Source: Allocatelliglobosispora scoriae | Lineage (GTDB): Bacteria > Actinomycetota > Actinomycetes > Mycobacteriales > Micromonosporaceae | Reading direction: 5' to 3' | Length of the DNA: 64,000 bases | Assembly: GCF_014204945.1 (NCBI RefSeq) | Contig: NZ_JACHMN010000002.1 | Coordinates: forward strand, 1,192,503-1,256,502 | In this document: piece by piece, positions 20,983 through 57,518 of the stretch | Layout: every line of letters begins with the position of its first letter | How positions within the stretch are numbered: the stretch's first letter is position 1 | Notes under the pieces: generated by a model | What the model saw: the letters and a program-made list of their open reading frames with translations, nothing else | Database searches by the model: none | Told to the model about the DNA's origin: nothing | Translations under genes and position numbers: made by a program

Positions 20983-22257
20983 TCACATCTTGGCCAAGGT
21001 GAACTCGAATCCGGAGCGGACGCGTTCCACAAGGGACGTCGTCGTGGCGCGCAGCGATCGGCCGTCGTCACCGGCGAGCTGGCCGTCGCCGGTGAACCGG
21101 GCGAGGATCGCCCCCGGCAGCATGGTGATCCCGGCCTTCGGCAGTGCGCTCACCGCAGCGGAGGCGGCGGGCACCTCGCGGACCACGACCGGCGGACCGC
21201 TCCAGCGCATGATGAGGTGGCTGCCGGGGTTGACCTGCGCGGCGGGCCGCGTGGTCGCGCCGAGCGGTCGGCCGAGGAGCGCCTGGAGGTGCTGCTCCAA
21301 ACAGGATGGTCCGCCGCGTTCCCCCTCCAGGCGGCTGAGCAGCCACGACGATCCCTGAATCCGCGGATTGACCTCCAACACCGAAAGGGTCCGCCCCGAT
21401 ACCGAGATGTCGACGCCGAAAATTCCCAGGTGTCCCTGCTCCCGCAACCATTCTCCGATCGTCGCGGCGTGCTGGAACGCCTCCTCGCGCACCGCCGCGG
21501 CGACAGCGGCCGCACCGAAGTCGCTGCCGCAGTAGGCGCCGAACTCGAACCCCAGCTCGGCGATCCCGCTCGCCTGCACCGAGATCGGCAGCAGCTGCGT
21601 GCCGTCGACGTGCACGATGCCCGCGACGTTGATCGTGGTGTCGCCCGCGAACGCCGAGACGAGCCAGCGCTCCACGTGCGGGTGGGCGGTGAGCGCGGTG
21701 GCGAGCCCCGCCGGATCGGTGACGAGATAGGTGCCCTGGCCACCGGCCCCGTTCGGCGACTGCACCACGAACGGGCTGCCGAGCCGCTCCTCGATCGCCG
21801 CGAACCCCATCGCGTCCGGTGTCAGGACCACCGCCTCCGGCACCGGTACGCCCAACCGCCGCAACGCCTCGCGTACGTGCGCCTTGTCCTCGGCGATCGG
21901 GTCGACGACGGCGATCGGGCTGGCTGCTACGCGTACCCGGCCCGGCCAGGCGGCGGCCGCGGACTCCCACGCCGTCGAGGCCCGGGGCGGGACGAGCAGG
22001 ATCGGCCGGTCGTCGCGGGGTGCGTCGGCGAGCACCTTCGGCACGAAGTCCGCCAGGCGGGCCACGTCACCGAAGCGCCACCGGCGGCGTACCCCGTCGA
22101 GTGCCTCCAGCGACAGCCCGGCGACGGGACCATTGATCGTCCGGTCGGCGTCGCCGGAGAGCACGCAGATGCACGACGGGTGCTGGGTCAGGGGCGCCAT
22201 CATCCCCGGATAGGCGCTCGCCGTGACGAGGCGGTAGTCGTGCAGATCCCATGTCAT
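20983..22257 (-). CDS. ATP-grasp superfamily ligase
   Basis: 424 aa from ATG 22257 (GTG 22263 is possible; no clear ribosome-binding site). The central ATP-grasp domain (about 130-340) shows KAHVREALRRLGVPVPEAVV, the glycine loop SPNGAGGQGTYLV, and the metal-binding end LSVLEVNPRIQGSSW. A pre-ATP-grasp N-domain and a C-terminal tail flank it. Such enzymes make amide bonds by way of acyl phosphates; partners cannot be read here, and it is not a recognisable purine or cell-wall ligase. Same strand as the membrane protein genes on both sides, with gaps of about 110-120 nt. Confidence 0.88.
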   Translation of the reverse strand: MTWDLHDYRLVTASAYPGMMAPLTQHPSCICVLSGDADRTINGPVAGLSLEALDGVRRRWRFGDVARLADFVPKVLADAPRDDRPILLVPPRASTAWESAAAAWPGRVRVAASPIAVVDPIAEDKAHVREALRRLGVPVPEAVVLTPDAMGFAAIEERLGSPFVVQSPNGAGGQGTYLVTDPAGLATALTAHPHVERWLVSAFAGDTTINVAGIVHVDGTQLLPISVQASGIAELGFEFGAYCGSDFGAAAVAAAVREEAFQHAATIGEWLREQGHLGIFGVDISVSGRTLSVLEVNPRIQGSSWLLSRLEGERGGPSCLEQHLQALLGRPLGATTRPAAQVNPGSHLIMRWSGPPVVVREVPAASAAVSALPKAGITMLPGAILARFTGDGQLAGDDGRSLRATTTSLVERVRSGFEFTLAKM

Positions 22258-22376
22258 GAGCACAGACTGTGATGAGCGCCGCGTAACTCGCACCACGGTC
22301 ACGACATACGCCAGGCGAACACCCGGCGAATCCTTGCTAAAGCGCAGTTCCGGCGCGCCCTGCGGTGCTCCGGTCG

Positions 22377-24026: not shown

Positions 24027-25741
24027 CTACATGCGGGACGGGGACTCGATGCCCAGCAAGGCCAGGCCCTTGGCGATCGTGCGGGCCGTGACGTCGCACA
24101 GGAGCAGGCGGCTGGCGCGGATCTCCGGGGACGACTTCAGGACCGGGCAGGTCTCGAAGAACGACGTGTAGGCACCGGCCAGACCCTGGAGGTATCCGGT
24201 GAGCCGGTGGAACTGCAGCGTCTCGGCGACCGTCTCGACCACCGACGGGAACGCGAGCAGCTCCAGCGCCAGCGCCCGCTCGGCGGGCTCGACCAGCAGC
24301 AGCGGTGCACCCCGGTCCGGCGCCACCTCCCCGCGCCGGAAGATCGACTGCACCCGGGCGTGGGCGTACTGCAGGTAGGCGCCGGTGTCGCCGGTGAAGG
24401 AGAGCATCCGGTCCCAGTGGAAGACGTAATCCTTGATCCGGTCGCTGGAGAGGTCGGCGTACTTGATGGCGCCGATGCCGACCGCCCGCGCCACGTCGGC
24501 CTGGGTCGCGGCGTCCAGATCGGAGTCGACGATCAGCGCGGCGGCCCGGGTGACCGCCTCCTCCAGCAGCTCGACGAGCTTGATCGCCTCACCGGACCGG
24601 GAGGCGAGCTTCTTGCCGTCCGGACCCACCACCAGGCCGAACCCGACGTGCGTCGCCCTGGCCGGTGCGACGAGCCAGCCCGCCTCCCGCGCGGTCTGAT
24701 AGACCATCTCGAAGTGCTGGTGCTGCGGTGACCCGACGACGTAGAGCAGCCGGGTCGCGCCCATCGTCTGCGTCCGGTGCCGGATCGCGGCGAGGTCGGT
24801 CGCGCCGTAGCCGAAGCCGCCGTCCCGCTTGCGGACGATGATCGGCTGGGGTTCCCCGCTCCGCCCGGTGAAACCTGCCGGGAAGGCGCACTGCGCACCG
24901 TCGCTCTCGGTCAGCAGGCCGAGCGCGCCGAGCTCGTCGACGACGGGTGCGAGCAGGTCGTTGTAGAACGACTCCCCGCAGAAGTCCCGGCTGGTCAGCG
25001 TGGTGCCGAGCAGGGCGTAGACGGCGAGGAAATACTTCTCGCTCTCATCGACGAGCATCCGCCACAGCCGCAGCGTCGTCTCGTCGCCGGACTGCAGGGC
25101 CACGACCCGCTGCCGGGACCGGTCGGCGAAGGCCGGGTCGCTGGAGAACTTGACCCAGGCGCCCTGGTAGAAGCCGTTGAGGTCGCCGATGGAGAGCTCG
25201 TGCGCCGCCTCGGTCTCGCCGAGGTCGAGCAGGTGCTCGATGAGCATGCCGAAGGGCGTGCCCCAGTCGCCGACGTGGTTGGCCCGCCGCACGTCGTGGC
25301 CGAGCCATTCGAGCAGTCGGGCGATCGCGTCGCCGATGACGGTCGAGCGCAGGTGCCCGACGTGCATCTCCTTCGCCACGTTGGGCGCGGAGTAGTCGAC
25401 GATCACGATCTCCGGCGCCGAGGTGACCCCGACGCCGAGCCGGTCGTCGGCGGCGACCTCGGCGAGCAGCCCGGCGAGTGCGGCGTCGTCGAGGCGGACG
25501 TTGATGAAGCCGGGTCCGGAGAGCTCCGCCGTGGCGATCAGGCCGGTGAGGTCGGCCCGCGACAGCACGTCGGCGGCGATGTCGCGAGGCGCCCGGGCGA
25601 GTCGGCGGGCCAGCGGCAGGGACCGTCGACCTGGAAGTCGGCGTGCTGGGACCGGCGTACGACGGGGTCCACGCGCTCACCGGCCACCGCCTCGAAGGCA
25701 GCGGCGAACCGATCGACGACGAGCTTCTCCAGATGTGTCAT
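24027..25741 (-). CDS. argS: Arginyl-tRNA synthetase with apparent single-base frameshift near codon 40
   Basis: Class I ArgRS, joining Arg to tRNA-Arg. The start ATG 25741 (AGAGG about 9 nt upstream) opens the family N-terminus through RRSQHADFQVDG. The same frame then loses similarity. One base out, the sequence continues as LPLARRLARAPRDIAADVL and stays open to the stop. One base seems to be missing near 25621-25625 (CGGTCCC). Beyond it everything is intact: HVGHLRSTVIGD (HIGH motif), GPDGKKLASRSGEA (KMSKS region) and the anticodon-binding domain. Combined length about 571 codons, normal for the family. Either an assembly error, or an inactivated or extra copy. Confidence 0.9.
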
Positions 25742-26041: not shown

Positions 26042-27559
26042 GTGTCGAGTCTGGACGGCTGGCAGCGGAAACGTCCGGCCGCTGCCCCGGTGGCGCCCCG
26101 GACCGTGCCGCAGCTGCTGCGTGAGCGCGCGCGCCAGGACCCGCACCGGGTCGCGATCGAGACGCACGGCGTGGGCACCCTCACCTTCGGCGACTGGGCC
26201 GCCCGGTCGGCCAGAATCGCGACCGGCCTGCGCGACCGCGGCCTGCGCCCGGGCGACCGGGTCGGGCTCGTCTTCGGCATCGGCGAGTGGATCGACTACG
26301 CCGCCGCCTACTGCGGGGTGCTCGCGGCGGGCGGGGTCGCCGTCCCGTGCTCGGACCGCTGGGCCGCCGCCGAGCTGCGCTACGTGCTGGAGCACTGCGG
26401 CGCGGTCGGGCTGCTCCACCGGCCGGGCGAGGTTGCGCCGACCCCCGGCTGGACCGCGACCGTCGACGAGCTGGAGCGCGCGCCGCAGGAGGAGGAGGAG
26501 ACGGACGGCGACCCGAGCGGTCTGGCGCAGATCCTCTACACCTCCGGGACGACCGGGCGGCCCAAGGGTGTCGCGGCATCGCACGCCAACCTCACCGCGA
26601 CCGCGTCGACCGATCCGCGCCGCCGGCCGCTCGCCCACTCGGAGCGGTTCCTGCACGCCTTCCCCGTCGGCACCAACGCGGGCCAGACGATGCTCTTCAA
26701 CGCGCTCGACGCGCACCCGGGCGCGCTCACCCTGCCGCTGTTCACCCCGGCCCGGTTCGCCCGGCTGATGACGCGGGCGGGCAGCGTCTTCGTCGTTCCG
26801 GCGATGGCGATCGAGCTGCTCGGCTCGGGCGCGCTGGCCAAGAACGACCTCAGCGGCGTACGCCTCGTCGGCTCCACCGCCGCGGCGCTGCCCGGACCGG
26901 TCGCGGCGGCGCTCGCGGCGGCCCTGCCGCAGGCCTCGATCGTCAACTACTACACCTCCACCGAGGCCGCGCCCGCGCAGACCAGCATGGTCTTCGACCC
27001 GGCCCGCCCGGCGTCGCTGGGCCGCTCGATCGGCGGCGGCCTGCGCATCACCGACCCCGACGGCAAACCGGTTCCCGCCGGCGAGCCCGGCGAGGTCTGG
27101 CTGCGGTCGCCGCATCCGCGCTCCTATTTCCGCGACGCCGAGTCGACCGGGGCCGTGTTCCGGGGCGGCTGGGTCCGCATGGGCGACCTCGGCAGGCTCG
27201 ACGACGAGGGCTACCTCTACCTGCTCGACCGGGAGCAGGACGTGATCAAGTCGGGGGCGCACAAGGTGTCGACCCTCGCCGTCGAGGCCGCCCTGCACGA
27301 GCACCCGGCGGTCGTCGAGGCGGCCGTCGTCGGTGTCGAGCACCGGGTGCTGGGCCACGCCGTCGCCGCCGCCGTCGTGGCCCGCGACGAGGTGACCGCC
27401 GTCGAGCTGCGGGCCTTCCTGCGCGACCGGCTGAGCCCGCACGAGGTTCCCGGCAAGTTTGTCCTGCTCGACGCCCTGCCGCGCAATGACGCGGGCAAGG
27501 TCGTCAAGCGTGAGCTGCGAGCTCTCCTCACCGGCTCGGCCGGTGACCCGGAAGGATGA
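26042..27559 (+). CDS. Adenylate-forming ligase (acyl-CoA/acyl-ACP synthetase type), first gene of NRPS operon
   Basis: 505 aa, GTG start with GAGGGA 6 nt upstream. ANL superfamily: A3 loop QILYTSGTTGRPKG, A5 NYYTSTEAAP, A7 GWVRMGDLG, A8 DREQDVIKSGAHKVS, and A10 lysine in NDAGKVVKREL. The A8 region resembles acyl-CoA ligases more than amino-acid A domains. It should activate a carboxylic acid with ATP and pass it to CoA or to a carrier protein of this cluster. The acid cannot be predicted. Its TGA overlaps the next ATG (ATGA), so translation is coupled. Confidence 0.92.
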   Translation: MSSLDGWQRKRPAAAPVAPRTVPQLLRERARQDPHRVAIETHGVGTLTFGDWAARSARIATGLRDRGLRPGDRVGLVFGIGEWIDYAAAYCGVLAAGGVAVPCSDRWAAAELRYVLEHCGAVGLLHRPGEVAPTPGWTATVDELERAPQEEEETDGDPSGLAQILYTSGTTGRPKGVAASHANLTATASTDPRRRPLAHSERFLHAFPVGTNAGQTMLFNALDAHPGALTLPLFTPARFARLMTRAGSVFVVPAMAIELLGSGALAKNDLSGVRLVGSTAAALPGPVAAALAAALPQASIVNYYTSTEAAPAQTSMVFDPARPASLGRSIGGGLRITDPDGKPVPAGEPGEVWLRSPHPRSYFRDAESTGAVFRGGWVRMGDLGRLDDEGYLYLLDREQDVIKSGAHKVSTLAVEAALHEHPAVVEAAVVGVEHRVLGHAVAAAVVARDEVTAVELRAFLRDRLSPHEVPGKFVLLDALPRNDAGKVVKRELRALLTGSAGDPEG

Positions 27560-30471
27560 CGATGACCGCTGCGTCCCCCGCACAGCACGGCATCTGGTTC
27601 ACAGAGGAGGCGGGCCTCGCCGGCTCGGCCTTCCACATGGCGGTGGAGATCTGGTTCGACGGCGACCTGGACCTCGACGCGCTGCACAACGCCTGCACGG
27701 CGGTCGCCGAGCGCCATCCGGCCCTGCGATCGGCCTTCACCGACGAGGCCGGATCGCTGCAGGTGGTTCCCGGCGTGATGCCGCCGGTGCTCGTCACCAC
27801 GCTGACCGAGTCGCTGGTGGCGCAGGAGCTGGCGAGCCCCTTCGACCTGCGGCACGGCCCGCTGGCGCGTTTCACCGTCGCCAGTGCGTCCCCGTCCCGG
27901 CACCTGCTGCTCGTCACCGCGCACCACATCGTCTTCGACGGAATCTCCAAGGCGGTGCTCGTCGCGGACCTCGCCGCCGCCTACGGCGGTGCGCAGCTCG
28001 CGCCGCTCGCCCCGGCTCCCCTGCCGGCGGTCGATCTCGACGCCGCCCGGGACTTCTGGCGGGACCGTTTCACCGGTCCCGGTCCGGTGAGCCTGCCGGG
28101 TCTGCGCCACGTCCCGGCCGAGGCCGCCACCGCCGCCCACGTCACCTGGTCGCTCGGCCCGGTGCTGAGCCGCGGTTTCGGCGAGGCCGCGGGCGCCGCC
28201 GGGGTCACCCGCTTCGAGTTCCTGCTCACCGGCTTGCTCACCCTCCTGCACCGGTACGCCGACCAGCCCCCCACCGTCGCCGTCGACGTCTCCACCCGGA
28301 GCCCCGAGACGGCTGACCACATCGGACACTTCGTCAACGAGCTGCCGATCACCGTCACGGCACCCGCGGACGGCACCTTCGCCGCCTACGCGACGGACGT
28401 GCGCGCGGCGTTGCGCGAGGCCTACCGGCACCGGGCCGCCCCGGTGGCCCGGGTCGTCGGCGGGCTGCGCCCGGCACCGGCGCTCACCCCGGTCTCGATG
28501 AGCTACCGCCACCACGGCGGCGGCGAGGCGAAGTTCGCCGGACTCGACGCGACCGTGACCTGGATGGTGCCGGTCACCGCCGCCCGCAACGCCCTGCACC
28601 TGCAGGTGCTCGACGAGACGACCGACCTGCACGTGAGCCTGCAGTTCTCCCCCGCCGCGATCGACGCCGACGCCGTGAGCCGCATCGCCGGGCACCTGGG
28701 CGAGCTGCTCACCGCCGCGATCACCGCCCCCGCGGCACCGCTCGCGACCCTGCCGGTGCTCACCGGGGCCGAACGGGAGCTGCTGCGCGCGGTCAACGAC
28801 ACGGCGGTGGCCTACCCGTCGGGCACCGTCGACGACCTGATCGCCGCCGTCGTCGCGTCCACTCCGGACGCCGTCGCGATCGTCGATAGTGGACGCGAGC
28901 TGACCTACGCCCAGCTCGACACCGAGGTGGCCGCCGTCGCGGGCGCGCTCGCGGCGCGGGGGGCCGGGCCGGGCGCCCTGATCGGGGTCTGCCTTCCCCG
29001 GTCCGTCCCGATGGTGGTGACGATGCTGGCGGTCCTGCGGTGCGGGGCGGCGTACCTGCCGCTGGACGTCTCCCATCCGCAGCCGCGACGGGCGATGATC
29101 CTGGACGACGCACGACCGCTGCTGACCGTGGACGAGCAGGTCTGGGCCTCGCTCGACCGCGGCGAGGGCCAGGCGCCGCGTGCGGGCGAGCTCGCCTACG
29201 TGATGTACACGTCCGGGTCGACCGGGCGGCCCAAGGGCGTCGAGGTGACCGTCGCCAACCTGCGCAACCTGCTGCTCGGCCTGCGCGACGCGCTCGGTTC
29301 CGGCCCCGCCGACACCTGGCTGGCGCTCACCTCGCCCGCCTTCGACATCAGCGCGCTGGAGCTGCTGCTGCCGCTGATCACCGGTGGCCGGCTGGTACTC
29401 GCGCCGCCGGAGCTGGCCCGGGACGCGGTGGCGCTCCACCGGCTCATCGCCGATCACGGCGTCACCCACGTGCAGGCGACACCGTCCGGCTGGCAGTTGC
29501 TGCTGGAGGGCGGTCGGCTGCCGGGCCTGCGGGTGGCGCTCGCCGGTGGCGAGGCGCTGCCGGCCGCGCTCGCGTCCGTGCTGCGCGGCGAGGCCGACCG
29601 GCTCGTCAACGTCTACGGCCCGACGGAGACGACGATCTGGTCCACGATGGACGATGTCGGGGACGGCGATGTGACGGTCGGGCGGCCGATCGCCAATACC
29701 CAGGCGTACGTGCTGGATGCGAGCATGCGACCGGTGCCGCTGGAGGTGACCGGCGAGCTGTGGCTCGGCGGCGCCGGGGTGGCCCGGGGCTACCTGGGGC
29801 GGCCGGAGCTGGACCGGGAGCGGTTCCTGCCGGATCCCTTCGGACCGGCGGGCGCGCGGCTCTACCGCACCGGCGACCTGGCCCGATGGCGGACCGACGG
29901 GCGGCTGGACTTCCTCGGCCGCCTCGACGGCCAGGTGAAGATCCGGGGCCACCGGGTGGAGCTGGGCGAGATCGAGGCACGGCTCACCGAGCACCCGGAG
30001 ATCAGCCAGGCCGCGGTGGCACTGCGCGGCGAGCCGCCTCGGCTCGTCGCCTACCTCGTCGCGGCGGCCGTCCCGGCCGACCTGAGGGCCCGGCTGGAGG
30101 CGGCGCTCCCCTCGGCGATGGTGCCGTCGGCATTCGTCCAGCTCGACCGGCTGCCGCTGACCCCCAACGGCAAGCTGGACCGGGCCGCCCTGCCCGAGCC
30201 GCCCGCCGTCGTGCCGAGCGCGCCGGTGGAGGACGCCGGACCGATCGCGGCCGAGCTGCTGACGATCTGGTCGGAGGTGCTGGAGATCGACGGGATCGGA
30301 CTGGACGAGGAGATCTTCGATCTCGGCGGCCACTCCCTGCTCATCGTGAAGATCATCAGCCGGATCCGGCGCCAGCTCGGCGTCGACGTGCCGATCGAGG
30401 TCTTCCTCGATACCCCGACCGTCCGCGGCCTCGCCGAGGCCATCACCGACTACCACCGGAGCAACGCGTGA
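27556..30471 (+). CDS. NRPS module C-A-PCP, predicted glycine-activating
   Basis: 971 aa. Condensation domain 1-420 with intact AHHIVFDG (about 121-128). Adenylation domain about 425-880 with YVMYTSGSTGRPKGVEVT, NVYGPTETTIW, YRTGDLARW, and NGKLDR. The eight pocket positions read by eye (AFDISALEL, VQATPSGW, ALAGGE, NVYGPTETTIW) plus the A10 lysine give DILQLGVIWK, one residue from the glycine code DILQLGLIWK. PCP about 890-971 with DLGGHSLLIVK (phosphopantetheine Ser about 927). No thioesterase or epimerase follows. Overlaps both neighbours by 4 nt. Confidence 0.95.
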   Translation: MTMTAASPAQHGIWFTEEAGLAGSAFHMAVEIWFDGDLDLDALHNACTAVAERHPALRSAFTDEAGSLQVVPGVMPPVLVTTLTESLVAQELASPFDLRHGPLARFTVASASPSRHLLLVTAHHIVFDGISKAVLVADLAAAYGGAQLAPLAPAPLPAVDLDAARDFWRDRFTGPGPVSLPGLRHVPAEAATAAHVTWSLGPVLSRGFGEAAGAAGVTRFEFLLTGLLTLLHRYADQPPTVAVDVSTRSPETADHIGHFVNELPITVTAPADGTFAAYATDVRAALREAYRHRAAPVARVVGGLRPAPALTPVSMSYRHHGGGEAKFAGLDATVTWMVPVTAARNALHLQVLDETTDLHVSLQFSPAAIDADAVSRIAGHLGELLTAAITAPAAPLATLPVLTGAERELLRAVNDTAVAYPSGTVDDLIAAVVASTPDAVAIVDSGRELTYAQLDTEVAAVAGALAARGAGPGALIGVCLPRSVPMVVTMLAVLRCGAAYLPLDVSHPQPRRAMILDDARPLLTVDEQVWASLDRGEGQAPRAGELAYVMYTSGSTGRPKGVEVTVANLRNLLLGLRDALGSGPADTWLALTSPAFDISALELLLPLITGGRLVLAPPELARDAVALHRLIADHGVTHVQATPSGWQLLLEGGRLPGLRVALAGGEALPAALASVLRGEADRLVNVYGPTETTIWSTMDDVGDGDVTVGRPIANTQAYVLDASMRPVPLEVTGELWLGGAGVARGYLGRPELDRERFLPDPFGPAGARLYRTGDLARWRTDGRLDFLGRLDGQVKIRGHRVELGEIEARLTEHPEISQAAVALRGEPPRLVAYLVAAAVPADLRARLEAALPSAMVPSAFVQLDRLPLTPNGKLDRAALPEPPAVVPSAPVEDAGPIAAELLTIWSEVLEIDGIGLDEEIFDLGGHSLLIVKIISRIRRQLGVDVPIEVFLDTPTVRGLAEAITDYHRSNA

Positions 30472-30728
30472 ACCCGGACCAGCTGCGCCACCGCCTCGCC
30501 GAGCTCGTCGCGGCCGCCAGCGACGGCGATGTCCGCGTCGAGGACGCCCTCGCCTCCTCGGCGGGCCTCGCCGAGCTGGGCCTCGGGTCTCTCGGCCACC
30601 TGCGCCTCGTCGACGCGGTCGAGGCGGAGTTCGACGTGCAGCTCGACACCGCCGGTGACCTGCACGCGCTCGACAGCATCGACCAGCTCGCCGCCTACCT
30701 AGCCGGCCCGGCCAAGGCGGCGTCATGA
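30468..30728 (+). CDS. Free-standing acyl/peptidyl carrier protein
   Basis: 86 aa, GTG start overlapping the upstream TGA (GTGA), stop overlapping the next ATG. Four-helix carrier fold with LGLGSLGHLRLVDAVEAEF; Ser41 is the expected phosphopantetheine site, with Gly in place of the usual Asp before it. It has an acidic helix II typical of carrier proteins. It probably holds the acid activated by the ligase, to be joined by one of the downstream condensation proteins. Confidence 0.88.
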   Translation: MNPDQLRHRLAELVAAASDGDVRVEDALASSAGLAELGLGSLGHLRLVDAVEAEFDVQLDTAGDLHALDSIDQLAAYLAGPAKAAS

Positions 30729-32146
30729 CCCCGGTCGCCGCCTTCCGGGGCACCCGGACCGCCGAGGCGCCGCTCACCTGGGGCCAGCAGGGCATCTGGA
30801 AGATCATCGACGTGATGGCGCCGAACGACGCCTTCCTCAACGTCCGGGCGGTCGTCCCCGTGCCGCAGCGCGCGGCCGGGACCGTCGACTCCGTCGCCGC
30901 CGCGATCGGCGCGCTCATCTCCCGGCACGAGTCGCTGCGCACCCGCATCGTGGTGACCGGCGGCGAGCCCCGGCAGGTCGTCGTCGACGCGGGTGAGTGC
31001 CCGCTGGCGCTGATCGAGGCGACCGCCGAGACCGCCGCCGACGTCGCCGAGCAGGCGATGGAGCGGCTGCGGCACCACCCGTTCGACTACGCCGGTGAGC
31101 TGCCGATCCGGGTGACCCTCGTCGTCGCCGACGGCCAGGTGCGCTTCGTGGTGCTGATCCTCACCCACGTCGCCGTCGACTGGTACGCGCTCACCCTCCT
31201 CGGCCGGGAGCTGCGTGTGGCCCTGCTGCGCGGCGAGATCACCGGCCCGGTCGGCATCCAGCCGGTCGACCTCGCCGCGACCGAGCACTCCGAGGCCGGG
31301 CAGCAGCGCAGCGCCCGAGCCCGAGATCATTGGCGGCGGCAGTTCGACCGCTTCCCGGCCAGCGTCTTCACCGAGGCGGGGCCGCCCGCGACACCGCGTT
31401 ACCGCAGAGCGGAGCTGACGTCGCCGGCCCTGCTCGCCGCTGCCCGGATCATCGCCGCGCGGCACTCGGCGACCTCCTCCACGGTGCTGCTCGCCGCCGC
31501 CGGTGCGCTGATCGGCGCCCGGACCGGGCAGGAGGTCTGCGGCATGCTGACGATCGTCAACAACCGCTTCCAGCCCGGCCACCGCGACATCATGGCCCCC
31601 ACCAACCAGCTCGGCGTGATCACGCTCGACCGGCGCGGTGCGGCCACCTTCGGCGAGCTCGTCACCGCCGTCTGGCGCGAGGCGCTGCAGTGCTTCCGGC
31701 ACGCCTACTACGACCAGCACGTCCTCGACGCGTTCCTCGCCGACGGCGGGCACGCCCACGGGGAGAAGATCGAGCCGTACTGCTGCTTCAACGACATGCG
31801 CGCGGGCGACGGCGAGCTGCGCGACACCGCGACCGCCGATCAGCTCCGGGCGGCGCTCCAGGAGACCGAGCTGACCTGGCCGGAGACGTTCGACGAGTTC
31901 AACTGGCAGTTCATGCTCTCGGTCAGCGACGCGCCGGGTGCGCTGAGCCTGTCGCTCTCCACCGACTCCCGCTACCTGCCGCCCGTCGAGCAGCAGCGCT
32001 TCCTGCTCGACCTGGAGGACCTCGTCGTCCGCTCGGCCATCGACGACGTGCGCCTGGGCGACCCGGGCGCTCACCACAACGACCCGGGCGCTCACCACGG
32101 TGCACCGGACGCTCACCACGTCGCGCTGGACGGGCGGGCGTCATGA
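30725..32146 (+). CDS. Stand-alone condensation-domain protein with altered active-site motif
   Basis: 473 aa, chloramphenicol-acetyltransferase-like condensation fold (LTWGQQGIW at the start, second-half motifs STVLLAAAGALIG and NQLGVITLDRRG). The active-site HHxxxDG reads THVAVDW (about residues 147-153): the catalytic second His and the Asp remain, the first His is Thr and the Gly is Trp. That deviation recalls specialised C domains or trans-acyltransferases. The C-terminus ends in three His-rich repeats (PGAHH, PGAHH, PDAHH) encoded by 21-bp tandem units. Cytoplasmic; coupled to both neighbours by ATGA. Confidence 0.88.
   Translation: MTPVAAFRGTRTAEAPLTWGQQGIWKIIDVMAPNDAFLNVRAVVPVPQRAAGTVDSVAAAIGALISRHESLRTRIVVTGGEPRQVVVDAGECPLALIEATAETAADVAEQAMERLRHHPFDYAGELPIRVTLVVADGQVRFVVLILTHVAVDWYALTLLGRELRVALLRGEITGPVGIQPVDLAATEHSEAGQQRSARARDHWRRQFDRFPASVFTEAGPPATPRYRRAELTSPALLAAARIIAARHSATSSTVLLAAAGALIGARTGQEVCGMLTIVNNRFQPGHRDIMAPTNQLGVITLDRRGAATFGELVTAVWREALQCFRHAYYDQHVLDAFLADGGHAHGEKIEPYCCFNDMRAGDGELRDTATADQLRAALQETELTWPETFDEFNWQFMLSVSDAPGALSLSLSTDSRYLPPVEQQRFLLDLEDLVVRSAIDDVRLGDPGAHHNDPGAHHGAPDAHHVALDGRAS
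32060..32122 (+). repeat. Three 21-bp tandem repeats encoding His-rich tail
   Basis: Units at 32060-32080, 32081-32101 and 32102-32122, each containing CGGxCGCTCACCAC. The first two differ only in the last 3 bases. They add a DPGAHHN-type heptapeptide per unit to the condensation protein, just before its stop. Confidence 0.9.
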
Positions 32147-33525
32147 CCGGCATCGGGCTCGCCGCGGCCGAGGCGGAGGCGCCCATCCCGCGGCGCCCGG
32201 CCGACGTGACCCGGGTGCCGCTGTCGGCGTTCCAGCAGCGCATGTGGCACCTCTGCACGGCCTATCCCGGCACGTCCTCGCCGGTCGTCTCGCTCAACCA
32301 CCGGCTGCGCGGCCCGCTGCGGACCGACGCGCTGATCCGGGCGATCGGCATGGTCGTCGACCGGCACGAGAGCCTGCGTACCGTCGTCGTCGACACCGAT
32401 CTCGGCCCGCAGCAGAGCTTCCTGCCGCTGGGCGGGCACACCGTCGAGCTCGTCGACCTCGGCGACCTGCCCGAGGGTGAGCGGGAGGAGCGGCTCGCCG
32501 AGCTGCTCGGGTCCCGCACGGCGATGCTCTTCGACCTGCACGGCGACAGCCTGGTCCGGTCCAGCCTGATCCGGCTCGCCGAGACCGATCACGTGCTCTC
32601 GATCGTGATGCACCACATCATCGCCGACGGCGCCTCCGCGGGCATCCTCGCGGCCGACCTCGCCGCGTGCTACCGGGCCTGCGTCGAGGGCGCGAGCCCC
32701 GCCCTCCCCGACCTCATCATCGGGTACGGGGACTTCGCCCTCTGGCAGCGCGACGGCTTCGACGCGCGGGCCGCCGAGGGCCTGGCCTATTGGCGGGAGC
32801 GCCTCGCCGGGGTGACGCCGCTGGAGCTGCCGACCGACTTCCCCCGCCCGGCCGAGCTGGGCACCCGCGCCGCCGACGTCTCCGTCCACGTCGGCGCCGA
32901 TGTCGTCGAGGGGGTCGAGCAGCTCGCCAGGGCGTCCCGGTGCAGCACGTTCACCGTGCTGCTCGCGGCGTACCAGGCGCTGCTCGCCGGCCGCAGCGGC
33001 ACCGACGACATCTGCGTGGGCATCCCGGTCGCCGGGCGGACCCGGATGGAGCTGGAGCCGATGATCGGGCTGTTCGGCAACACACTGCCGATGCGGTGCG
33101 ATCTGAGCGGCGACCCGACCTTCGCCGAGCTGCTCAAGCGGGCCCGGAGCATGGTGCTGGGCGGACTCAGCCGCCAGGATGTGCCCTTCGGGCACGTGGT
33201 GGCCCAGCTCGACCTGCCCAGCGACCCGAGCCGGACCCAGGTCTTCCAGACGATCATGGTGCTGCACACCGAGGGCGGATCGGAGGGGCTCGACCTCACC
33301 GGGCTCGCCGTCGAGCCTACTCCGGCCGGAATGCCCCAGATCATCCACGACCTTGTCCTGGACCTCTTCCCGCGGCCGGACGGGCTGGAGACCGACTGGC
33401 GCTACGACACCGCGCTCTTCACCGCCGAGACGATCATGGAACTCGCCGCCGACTACGGGAAAGTGCTCCGACGCATCGCCGCCGAACCGGGCGTCCGCAT
33501 CTCCGCGCTGGTAGAAGCGGTGTGA
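32143..33525 (+). CDS. Stand-alone condensation-domain protein (canonical LCL-like)
   Basis: 460 aa, ATG overlapping the upstream TGA. Complete condensation domain: PLSAFQQRMW (C1), RHESLRT (C2), MHHIIADGAS (C3, catalytic His about 158), ALWQRDGF...YWRERLAG (C4), FTVLLAAYQALLAGRSGTDDI and GIPVAGR (C5), GLFGNTLPMR (C6), QDVPFGHVV (C7). It should form an amide or ester between two carrier-bound groups, most simply the acid on the free carrier and glycine on the module. Last gene of the coupled operon; no thioesterase follows. Confidence 0.93.
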   Translation: MTGIGLAAAEAEAPIPRRPADVTRVPLSAFQQRMWHLCTAYPGTSSPVVSLNHRLRGPLRTDALIRAIGMVVDRHESLRTVVVDTDLGPQQSFLPLGGHTVELVDLGDLPEGEREERLAELLGSRTAMLFDLHGDSLVRSSLIRLAETDHVLSIVMHHIIADGASAGILAADLAACYRACVEGASPALPDLIIGYGDFALWQRDGFDARAAEGLAYWRERLAGVTPLELPTDFPRPAELGTRAADVSVHVGADVVEGVEQLARASRCSTFTVLLAAYQALLAGRSGTDDICVGIPVAGRTRMELEPMIGLFGNTLPMRCDLSGDPTFAELLKRARSMVLGGLSRQDVPFGHVVAQLDLPSDPSRTQVFQTIMVLHTEGGSEGLDLTGLAVEPTPAGMPQIIHDLVLDLFPRPDGLETDWRYDTALFTAETIMELAADYGKVLRRIAAEPGVRISALVEAV

Positions 33526-33615: not shown

Positions 33616-34551
33616 ATGACCGCCGCCACGATCGATTCGTTCGTCCACCCCGCGCTGTTCTACGGCGACACCGCCGATTACCTCGCGGGCACCCTCCCCT
33701 TCATCCAGGGGGGCCTCGACGCGGACGAGCCGGTCATGATCGCGGTGCCGGGCGCCAACCTCGACCACATCCGCAGCGCTCTCGGCGGCGACGCGGACCG
33801 GGTCCAGCTCCACGACATGAGCGTCGCCGGACGCAATCCGGGCCGGATCATCCCGGGCGTGCTGCTCGCCTTCGCCGCCAAGCACACGGGGCGTGCCGTG
33901 CGGATCGTCGGCGAGCCCATCTACGCCGAGCGCACGCCGGCGGAGTACCCGGCCTGCGCCCAGCACGAGGCGCTGATCAACCTGGCCTTCGCCGGTCGGC
34001 GGGCGTCGATCCTCTGCCCTTACGACACGAGCAGCCTCGATGAGAGCTGGCTCGCCGACGCCTACCGTACGCATCCGGTCGTGCGCAGCGCCGCCGCCGA
34101 GTGGCCGAGCCCGGCCTACGGCGATCCCGCCGCCTGCGCGGCCGACTTCAACCACGCGCTGCCCGACCCGCCCGCGGACGCACGGCAGATCGGCGTCGAC
34201 AGCACCGCCCTGTCCGGGATGCGCCGCGCCGTCACCGAGCAGGCGGGCGACGCCGGGCTGCCGGTCGAGCGGATCAACGACCTGATCATCGCGGTGAGCG
34301 AGCTCGCCGCCAACACGATCGAGCACGGCGGAGCCGCCGGGACGCTGACGCTCTGGACAGACGGCAAGATTCTCTGCTGCCAGCTCACCGATACCGGACA
34401 CATCACCGACCCGCTCGCGGGCCGGATCCCGGTCCCGGTGACCCAGGCGACCGGCGGGCGGGGCCTGGTCATGGTCAACCAGCTCGTCGACCTCGTGCGG
34501 ATCCACACCCGGCCGGGCGCGACCACGGTCCGCCTGCACATGTACGTCTGA
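33616..34551 (+). CDS. MEDS-domain / HATPase anti-sigma-type regulatory protein
   Basis: 311 aa, ATG with GGAGG 6 nt upstream. The N-terminal MEDS domain (about 8-150: HPALFYGDTADYLAG, GLDADEPVMIAV) is a sensory module of DcmR type. The C-terminal RsbW-like ATPase (about 195-311) has N-box ELAANTIEHGG, DTGHITDP and GGRGLVMVNQLVD. There is no His phosphoacceptor domain, so it is an anti-sigma-factor-type kinase rather than a sensor histidine kinase. Cytoplasmic. It follows the NRPS operon after 90 nt and has its own ribosome-binding site; its link to the cluster is unproven. Confidence 0.88.
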   Translation: MTAATIDSFVHPALFYGDTADYLAGTLPFIQGGLDADEPVMIAVPGANLDHIRSALGGDADRVQLHDMSVAGRNPGRIIPGVLLAFAAKHTGRAVRIVGEPIYAERTPAEYPACAQHEALINLAFAGRRASILCPYDTSSLDESWLADAYRTHPVVRSAAAEWPSPAYGDPAACAADFNHALPDPPADARQIGVDSTALSGMRRAVTEQAGDAGLPVERINDLIIAVSELAANTIEHGGAAGTLTLWTDGKILCCQLTDTGHITDPLAGRIPVPVTQATGGRGLVMVNQLVDLVRIHTRPGATTVRLHMYV

Positions 34552-54546: not shown

Positions 54547-55009
54547 TCATGCCGCCTCCGCCCGGCGCAGCAGGAGTGCGGTGTTGTGCCCGCCCAGCCT
54601 GAAGGAGATCGAGGCACCGGCCTAGGCCGTGCCGCCCGGCACCGGTCCGAAGGCCAGGTCGGGCGGGGCGAGCGCACGGTCCACGTTGAGCGTGTCGAAG
54701 ACCTCGCCGCGCTGCACCGCGAGCGCGGTCGCCGCGACGTCGAGCGCGCTCGCTGCACCGAGGGTGTGGCCGTAGACGGGCTTCGTCGACAGGAGCGGCA
54801 CGTTTCGTGCCCCTCTCCGGGAACCCCCCGAGATATTTGCGGGCGTCGAATTCGCCGATCCGGCCCATCGGGAGCGGCTCGCCGGGCTGCGCCGGGTTCG
54901 GCTGCAGAGTGAGCTGCGACGACCCCGAACACAACTGTCCCCAGAGGACAGCAGCGGTGTCGCAGCCCGCCAGCAGGACACCGATTCCAGTGATCACAAC
55001 GTTGTGCAC
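54547..55009 (-). pseudogene. Ketoacyl synthase remnant (internal deletion and frameshift)
   Basis: GTG 55009, with GGGAGG upstream, opens a ketosynthase N-terminus (VVITGIGVLLAG, then MGRIGEFDARKYLGGFPER, about 65 residues). The frame is then lost. C-terminal ketosynthase sequence follows in another frame (STKPVYGHTLGAASALDVAA, FDTLNVDRALAPPDL) and again in a third (ISFRLGGHNTALLLRR to TGA 54547). The middle, including the active-site Cys region, is gone. A following ORF begins ATGAGCACC overlapping this stop, the trace of an old operon. Resembles FabF or type II polyketide ketosynthases. Confidence 0.8.
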
Positions 55010-56412: not shown

Positions 56413-56513
56413 GACTCCTGTCACCAATATGAGACATCTACGGCAAATAGGCACAGAAGTCGGTAAGGTCGGGGCATCTGGCAAACCCGGGGCCGAGCCG
56501 AGAGGTGCTGCCG

Positions 56514-57518
56514 ATGAGCATCGTGATCACGGCGTGCGAGCAGTCCACCTGGGCCGGCGACGGCCAGGCGACGATAGCCGCGATCTTCGAGGGCCGACCC
56601 TCCCGCAGCTCCGCGCCGCCCGCGCTGCCGGGACTCTGGCTCACCAGGTGCGTCCGGGTCGCCGCCGACCGGGCCGGCCTCGACCTCTCCTCCGACCGCG
56701 TCATGGTGATCGCGAGCTGCGGCCTGCGGGACCTCATCGAGGACGAGGCGGGCGAGGAGGTCCACGCGGCCGAGGCCCGCTTCGCCACCGCCGTCCACGA
56801 CGCACTCCCCCAGATCCGCACGGCGGTCACCATCACCGCCGAGAGGGCCGCCACCGGCGGGAGCATCGCCCTCGCCTGCGAGCTGCTCCAGCTCGGCCAG
56901 GCGGACGCGGTCGTCGTCATCGGCTGCGACACTCCGGCCGGCGCGGCCCGGTCCACGACCGGCGGCCACCTTCCGCCGATCCTCGGTCCCGGCGGCGCGG
57001 TCGTGGTGCTGACGACCCGCGCAGCCGCCCGGTCACTGGGGCGGCACGTGCTCGGCCACGTGCTCGGGGTCGGCCTCTCGGCCGACGTGCCGACGGCGTT
57101 CGATCCGGCCGCGATCGCGAGCACGATCTCCGTCGCCCACCTGCGCGCCGGGGTCGATCCGGCCGAGGTCGACCTGGTCGTCGCGGACAGCCCCACCACC
57201 TCGCTCGACTTCCGCCACGAGGCCTCCGGCCTGGCCAGGGTCTTCGCGGAGAACCAGCCGGGCCCGCTCGTCACCACGATCGCGGGCGCGCTCGACCAGA
57301 CGCCGGGCGGCGCGCCGCTGCACAGTGTCGCGGTCGCACTGCACTCGCTGCAGTCGGGTTGGGTCCCGCCCGCCGCCGGGCCGCCGCCGGTCACCGCCAC
57401 GAAGATCAACCTCGTTCTGGGTACGCCATCCGAGCGCACCGTCAGAATCGCCCAGGTCAACGCGCTGGGAGCCGCGGGCACGAGCGCATTCGTGGTGCTC
57501 GGCTCCCGAGCCCGATAA
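56514..57518 (+). CDS. Ketosynthase-fold (thiolase superfamily) protein lacking the active-site Cys
   Basis: 334 aa from ATG 56514 with GAGGTG 6 nt upstream. Thiolase-fold pattern: SIVITACEQSTWAGDG start, ERAATGGSIALACELLQLGQADAVVVIGCD in the centre (equivalent to the nucleophile-elbow region of ketosynthases), PGGAVVVLTTRAAA, and a C-terminal half ending VNALGAAGTSAFVVLG like the ketosynthase GFGG end. The Cys expected before the ATGG turn is Ala. It may be a chain-length-factor-like or decarboxylating partner, or bind a ligand. 101 nt after the XRE-TPR gene, with TAAGGT between them. Confidence 0.8.
   Translation: MSIVITACEQSTWAGDGQATIAAIFEGRPSRSSAPPALPGLWLTRCVRVAADRAGLDLSSDRVMVIASCGLRDLIEDEAGEEVHAAEARFATAVHDALPQIRTAVTITAERAATGGSIALACELLQLGQADAVVVIGCDTPAGAARSTTGGHLPPILGPGGAVVVLTTRAAARSLGRHVLGHVLGVGLSADVPTAFDPAAIASTISVAHLRAGVDPAEVDLVVADSPTTSLDFRHEASGLARVFAENQPGPLVTTIAGALDQTPGGAPLHSVAVALHSLQSGWVPPAAGPPPVTATKINLVLGTPSERTVRIAQVNALGAAGTSAFVVLGSRAR

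Follow-up and report, generated by a model that had tools for sequence, protein, structure and literature searches.

A compact five-gene split NRPS operon of Allocatelliglobosispora scoriae looks like a reduced member of a widespread actinomycete family

According to the available part of PMC9113097, an acyl ligase, a free acyl carrier protein (ACP) and a specialised condensation (C) domain initiate the synthesis of daptomycin-type lipopeptides (DptE-DptF-DptA). A ligase, a free ACP and a stand-alone C protein acting with a free amine yield fatty acid amides (FAA) in the OaaA-OaaACP-OaaC pathway, as described in the accessible portion of a preprint (PMC13142362), and pyrrolamide assembly involves a free peptidyl carrier protein (PCP) and two free C proteins, one of which is proposed to add the terminal amine (PMC4047045, partial text). 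Here we compare these systems with a five-gene operon of Allocatelliglobosispora scoriae at positions 26042-33525 of a 64,000-nt stretch of DNA (contig NZ_JACHMN010000002.1, positions 1,192,503 to 1,256,502), which we refer to as the window. The operon looks like a member, reduced or rearranged, of a family in which we found no characterised cluster. It resembles larger actinomycete clusters in slimmed-down form more than a system of an entirely new kind. The region is filled by five intact open reading frames (ORFs), all on the plus strand:

lig, 26042..27559, plus strand: stand-alone AMP-binding acyl ligase, 505 aa, GTG start (PF00501, 8.5e-59; PF13193, 3.2e-17)
CAT, 27556..30471, plus strand: single C-A-PCP module (A, adenylation domain) of a nonribosomal peptide synthetase (NRPS), 971 aa (PF00668, PF00501, PF13193, PF00550)
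ACP, 30468..30728, plus strand: free carrier, 86 aa, GTG start (PF00550, 4e-6), with its Ser in LGLGSL
C1, 30725..32146, plus strand: stand-alone protein of the condensation superfamily, divergent subfamily, 473 aa (PF00668, 3.6e-27), with THVAVDW in place of HHxxxDG
C2, 32143..33525, plus strand: stand-alone condensation protein of the ordinary type, 460 aa (PF00668, 1.5e-80), with HHIIADG

Our analysis confirmed that the operon is a real, intact and compact split NRPS. Consecutive genes meet in 4-nt junctions (lig/CAT ATGA, CAT/ACP GTGA, ACP/C1 ATGA and C1/C2 ATGA), and GC content at third codon positions agrees with the five reading frames. The Pfam architecture runs AMP-binding and AMP-binding_C (lig); Condensation, AMP-binding, AMP-binding_C and PP-binding (CAT); PP-binding (ACP); and Condensation in both C1 and C2, which bears out the gene content given by an earlier, sequence-only reading of the window; the coordinates and the four overlaps also agree with that reading. 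An A domain, a phosphopantetheine carrier and a C domain with its catalytic His are thus all present by Pfam and motifs, the condensation motif being HHIVFDG in CAT and intact in C2 as well; C1 keeps the second His. Overlaps of 4 nt recur in relatives, in 49/73 distinct same-strand pairs for lig/CAT-like genes, 28/54 for ACP/C1, 11/12 for ACP/C2 and 18/35 for CAT/ACP; genes were labelled here by best BLAST hit, so that 'CAT' includes stand-alone C domains, and starts were taken from our own gene caller. The case for the overlaps is one of conservation in relatives and not of a computed chance expectation. Among the NCBIfam matches listed, lig, ACP, C1 and C2 had no model above cut-off and CAT had a generic adenylation-domain model only; the rows listed for lig (25 of 104) were acyl-CoA ligases, fatty-acyl ligases and similar families, all below cut-off.

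We tentatively favor a scenario, to which we give a little less than even odds, in which the five genes form a compact split NRPS making a small N-acyl-aminoacyl product, with C2 releasing it without a thioesterase (TE) and C1 performing a separate ACP-linked transfer. Going by its family, lig would adenylate a carboxylic acid and load it onto the free ACP. The A domain of CAT would load one amino acid onto the PCP of the same protein, and the C domain of CAT would join the ACP-bound acyl group to this amino acid. C2 would then hand the PCP-bound acyl-aminoacyl chain over to an acceptor, either a free amine or alcohol or a carrier in trans; such a release without a TE is suggested by patterns of gene co-occurrence. 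C1, which is encoded beside ACP and belongs to the conserved core described below, may carry out a separate ACP-linked acyl transfer and not simply release. The sequence-only reading had already proposed activation of an acid by the ligase, loading of the free carrier, condensation on the module and release by a stand-alone C protein. That scheme is still the best fit and plausible, with the correction that the C proteins differ in kind, C1 being divergent and C2 the likelier release enzyme.

Measured against daptomycin-type initiation, the operon has the same kinds of parts, namely a stand-alone acyl ligase, a free carrier similar in length (about 90 aa) and a module whose N-terminal C domain would couple the acid with the first amino acid. 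Unlike daptomycin-type lines, which have a terminal CAT-CAT-TE, the operon provides a single module, with no further Condensation match within ~270 kb, plus two stand-alone C proteins. The genome is 9.15 Mb in size with 49 Condensation matches, and the matches nearest to the operon on its contig lie ~274 kb and ~539 kb away. When the window was searched by tblastn (E 1e-3, one query each) for TE, major facilitator superfamily transporter (MFS), DMFA2_C, glycosyltransferase, MbtH, sulfotransferase-like and ATP-binding cassette (ABC) exporter relatives, no match was obtained. No linked release enzyme or extra module was therefore found, there being no Condensation match within the distance given and no TE relative in the window by its one query; on this point the earlier reading holds. 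In common with the FAA pathway, where a soluble amine effects release, the operon has a ligase, a free carrier and a C protein that stands alone and departs from the canonical motif; it differs, by description, in having a full C-A-PCP module and a second C protein.

The family to which the operon would belong was mapped in two ways. Patterns built from the window's own C1 and run over genome contigs gave 52 loci (the C1 scan), and a set of 71 distinct lig loci, window excluded, was assembled in stretches of ~12-21 kb, 46 of the 71 having been retrieved via C1. A core of lig-CAT-(MbtH)-ACP-C1 was found in Streptomyces, Kitasatospora, Embleya and Micromonosporaceae. A strong lig relative lies near C1 in 46/52 C1-scan loci, and within 9 kb of lig there is an ACP in 65 of the 71 loci, a CAT in 58 and a C1-type gene in 63, this last figure being biased by the retrieval via C1. 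Companions in the C1-scan loci are a DMFA2_C-like gene (48), an MbtH relative (29), an MFS relative (25) and a TE relative (24). The usual order in Streptomyces and Kitasatospora is NRPS, lig, CAT, a small protein, ACP, C1 and a large protein, with 4-nt overlaps at many steps; in those loci that were checked, MbtH accounts for the small protein and a DMFA2_C-like protein for the large one. At Streptosporangium-type loci, lig is divergent from ACP-C1 and has a stand-alone C domain after it, and one locus (L011) continues with E1/E2-like genes by eye. An Embleya plasmid record encodes C-A-PCP, a synthetase with TE and MFS parts, lig, CAT, MbtH, ACP, C1 and a DMFA2_C-like protein. In a plasmid collection, lig relatives occur in 6 records (E 1e-60) and C1 relatives in 3 (E 1e-20); the three plasmid regions inspected comprised two without annotated features and one with 20. 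Among genomes, lig relatives were detected in 17/394 of the class, our own genome included (E 1e-120), and in 81/300 of the family (E 1e-60), and C1 relatives in 156/300 of the family at E 1e-20, a loose limit that may admit other C proteins.

The operon thus shows the core order in tightly coupled form but lacks the usual DMFA2_C-like companion, C2 coming after C1 instead. Like the window, the core-family clusters (for example L131, L132, L166 and the Streptomyces and Kitasatospora loci) have these homologues in the same order with frequent 4-nt overlaps; unlike it, they have additional modules, a TE whose nucleophile place is occupied by Cys, an MFS transporter and, in many cases, MbtH and a DMFA2_C-like gene. 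This qualifies the earlier view of the operon as the best candidate in the window for an undescribed small system. We found no characterised match, in a comparison that took in no curated cluster collection, and no paper on the lig-CAT-ACP-C1 family turned up in a literature search by strict term matching, with subscription papers mostly outside its scope. The four-gene core is nevertheless widespread, often within larger clusters that have a TE-bearing synthetase. C1 relatives also occur without lig (L002, L113, L114, L116 and L162).

Several family members show features of their own. L131:4169-9718 encodes, by Pfam (run on this locus only), a fusion of a C-A-PCP synthetase with a TE and an MFS transporter, and the same TE has Cys at the nucleophile place (YGHC) in 36/36 aligned loci, including two of our own genome (L173 and L175). 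A gene of the tryptophan-halogenase family (L123:3-1109) stands immediately before one lig-CAT-ACP-C1 set. A large biotin carboxylase / carboxyl transferase protein is encoded at a Micromonosporaceae family member (L129:852-6302), adjoining a double C1-type protein. At L002 and L163, probably one locus, C1, a sulfotransferase-like gene and two ABC exporters stand in a row, with no adjoining lig or CAT.

The DMFA2_C-like companion of the C1-scan loci can be compared with the amidohydrolase of pyrrolamide clusters, and the parts of the operon resemble the pyrrolamide set of a free PCP, two free C proteins and a module with C and PCP domains (PMC4047045, in its accessible part). The likeness to the congocidine/distamycin split NRPS (Cgc18/Cgc19/Cgc2/Cgc16) and to the pya22-26 mini-cluster is drawn from the kinds of parts present (module, free PCP and two free C proteins). 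On these grounds, the free C proteins could conceivably act on the free carrier to oligomerise or cap the acid that lig loads, with an acyl cap attached by one of them and a terminal amine by the other. We regard this as very improbable; no pyrrole-precursor or amidine genes were recognised near the operon when the window gene list was inspected by eye, and the window's tblastn search brought up no DMFA2_C relative.

A second arrangement of the same protein types, in which C1 is divergent and lig-CAT-ACP-C2 stand in a row, is found at a paralogous locus of our own genome (L115) and its relatives. At L115 and at 8 loci of one related genus (L145-L152), lig, CAT, ACP, C2 and a glycosyltransferase gene are consecutive; L153 has the same arrangement without the glycosyltransferase. 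L115 additionally carries ABC exporters and a sulfotransferase-like gene. All five protein types are common to the window and to L115 and L145-L153, with an identical A-domain code in 8/10 loci and C2 46-51% identical; these loci differ from the window in the divergent C1, the glycosyltransferase after C2 (L153 apart) and the ABC exporters near most of them. Loci L117 and L159-L161 represent a third arrangement, in which lig encodes a longer protein (a lig-PCP-C fusion in L117) and is accompanied by C2 and a glycosyltransferase. The window unites the core lig-CAT-ACP-C1 with the lig-CAT-ACP-C2 of the second arrangement. Among the mapped stretches, which covered 21 of the 33 C2 places (window included), none but the window showed lig-CAT-ACP-C1-C2 in exactly this order; a gene-neighbourhood search, as the earlier reading had proposed, thus found the full order once and the core recurrently. 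C2 relatives were detected at E 1e-100 in 14/300 family genomes and 1/394 class genomes, our own genome counted in both. The nearest C1-C2 pair is that of Allorhizocola rhizosphaerae (C1 66% and C2 70% identical, ATGA overlap), with no adjoining lig, CAT or ACP; it lies on a different contig from the lig genes of that genome.

The paralogue gives rise to the main rival of our scenario, namely that the operon belongs to a larger pathway, of which it is a relocated or reduced piece, and acts in trans with L115 above all or with a TE-bearing synthetase of the genome. The codes of the CAT proteins of the window and L115 are identical (DILAAAVIWK) and both loci hold the same five protein types, the window is without glycosyltransferase and exporter relatives by tblastn, other loci of the genome (L173, L175) encode TE and MFS relatives, and in Allorhizocola the C1-C2 pair and the lig genes are likewise on separate contigs. 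We nonetheless think this rival unlikely: the five window ORFs are all intact and coupled, lig is 64-66% identical to other clusters versus 58% to L115, and C1 is 36-37% identical to the C1 of L115, so that the two sets have diverged. Should it be right after all, the locus would still be a clear case of a reduced cluster needing partners elsewhere in the genome.

With regard to product release, C2 is the better candidate, and our reasoning is that C2 and a TE never share a lig locus. Counting as C2-type those genes with a best hit to C2 at an identity of at least 44% (which excludes L126 at 41%), we found among the 71 lig loci 14 with a C2-type gene and no TE, 30 with a TE and no C2-type gene, 27 with neither and 0 with both, within the stretches covered. 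C1 shares its locus with a TE in 24/52 C1-scan loci and is for this reason unlikely to be simply the release enzyme. C2 is an ordinary C domain that lacks the A-PCP carried by its neighbours in a tree of 73 C-type domains, whose references came from our own genome and related loci and not from a curated C-type set. Its sister group consists of four C domains of larger synthetases (support 89-90, a branch not starred), two of which (L131, L166) belong to clusters with TE and MFS; the best solved-chain matches of C2 are the Txo2 and Txo1 C domains. The phylogeny that the earlier reading had called for was thus run with non-curated references, and it set C1 apart and placed C2 among ordinary C domains.

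A number of observations weigh against the scenario of a self-sufficient operon with C2 as its release enzyme: (i) 12 of the 14 C2 loci were retrieved for their C2 hits and are a chosen sample; (ii) the mutual exclusion of TE and C2 could stem from shared ancestry or from stretches (~12-21 kb) that end too early; (iii) C2 relatives occur without lig (L119, L154, L157 and L158), so that C2 is not confined to this system; (iv) tblastn of the window with single queries turned up neither an exporter nor an MbtH relative; (v) TE relatives are encoded elsewhere in the genome, at the loci named above, and a TE could thus act in trans; and (vi) the C domain of CAT has Txo2/Txo1 as its best solved matches, with the first C domains of CDA and RzmA ranking low, and is not resolved as a starter type.

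C1 stands apart from both other C domains of the operon. In an alignment of 76 distinct C1-type rows, window included, the first His of the motif is absent in 76/76 (Cys 53, Ser 19, and Thr, Ala, Pro and Asp one each), the second His and the Asp are kept in 76/76, and the residue after the Asp is Gly in 55, Phe in 14, Trp in 4 (the window among them), Ala in 2 and Val in 1. A segment around FND(M)R is almost invariant, and the window's C1 has all three of these subfamily marks. In the tree the 13 labelled C1 rows form one side of a branch with support 93, and, with one C1-like row included, they share a long stem (support 100) that separates them from C2, the CAT C domains and the epimerization (E) domains. 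The structural model of C1 (pLDDT 88.6, pTM 0.85) has a C-domain fold. Its fold matches, 50 of which were listed, are led by the AmbB C domain (Z 34.2 to 33.7; at best a root-mean-square deviation of 3.2 over 370 residues at 21% identity), the next match other than AmbB having Z 30.6; fold likeness alone shows no function. As reported in the available text of PMC8968710, the AmbB C domain needs the second His and the Asp of the motif. We take C1 to be catalytically active by this analogy because both residues are present. A SHXXXDXX(T/S) motif is listed only for the fungal LCL-A type in the part of PMC10212144 available.

An alternative division of labor would have C1 release the ACP- or PCP-bound chain onto a soluble amine or alcohol, with C2 making the internal bond or serving another carrier. 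C1 comes after ACP with a 4-nt overlap and keeps the second His and Asp while losing the first His and, in the window, the Gly; stand-alone C domains of the FAA type also deviate at these places, with (D/H)HxxxDS (PMC13142362, accessible portion). The window's C1 does not fit that OaaC-type motif, however, having Thr for the first His and Trp after the Asp. Gly takes the place of the Ser in 17% of FAA domains, by the same partial text, and the window's C2 reads HHIIADG. Since a TE accompanies C1 relatives in nearly half of the C1-scan loci, where an extra release enzyme would be needless, we consider release by C1 quite unlikely and keep to C2 in this role. We have also considered a broader proposition, which joins two claims and which we hold to be doubtful: that C1 is an undescribed condensation-domain subtype with a single conserved role throughout a pan-actinomycete family, namely a non-canonical acyl transfer linked to the ACP, and that the window is the family's minimal working version, which uses a single acid, a single amino acid and a single free nucleophile, has no TE and leaves release to a freed C domain, C2.

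With respect to substrates, the motifs of lig around HAFPxGTNA, VPAMAIELL and NYYTSTEAAPAQ are almost unchanged in an alignment of 72 rows including the window. Because these substrate-side motifs are conserved, the same carboxylic acid is probably activated across the lig family. The A-domain code of CAT was read by alignment, with code positions placed by GrsA numbering. Of 38 CAT codes, window included, 34 start with DI and 4 with DM, all of the latter in the fused- or long-ligase arrangement. The CAT code shares 6/10 positions with DILQLGLIWK, which we take to be a glycine code (a literature search did not confirm this), and agrees by eye at ~5/10 positions with that of the second LgrA module, which presumably takes glycine. 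Glycine, the amino acid named by the sequence-only reading, is thus possible and is pointed to weakly by the code; small residues at three positions of the code would likewise leave room for a bulky side chain. Six CAT-type codes were sought in the literature by strict matching and none was found.

If our scenario is correct, the operon would be a very small natural member of a widespread and apparently uncharacterised actinomycete NRPS family, easily rebuilt in vitro. Its five proteins could then serve to identify both the conserved acid and the amino acid, and to show what chemistry is performed by a divergent condensation subfamily otherwise embedded in larger clusters. It would also mean that an assembly line can dispense with a TE by freeing a C domain.

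Two genes flanking the operon were considered as members. On one side is an arginyl-tRNA synthetase gene, one of two in the genome, whose membership is not supported: mapping with an ArgS query labelled no relative in the neighbourhoods covered. It lies at window positions 24027-25740 on the minus strand with its N-terminal part in a different frame, consistent with a broken gene or a sequence error, and the other copy is on contig C3. Downstream is an RsbA-type regulator (33616-34551), which we judged to be a separate gene, as it lies beyond a 90-nt gap and has its own start, with no copy labelled beside other lig loci. Further afield in the window, inspection by eye suggested an ATP-grasp-like protein on the minus strand (20983-22263), a short ketosynthase-like fragment (54622-54801) and a longer ORF that may be ketosynthase-like (56505-57518).

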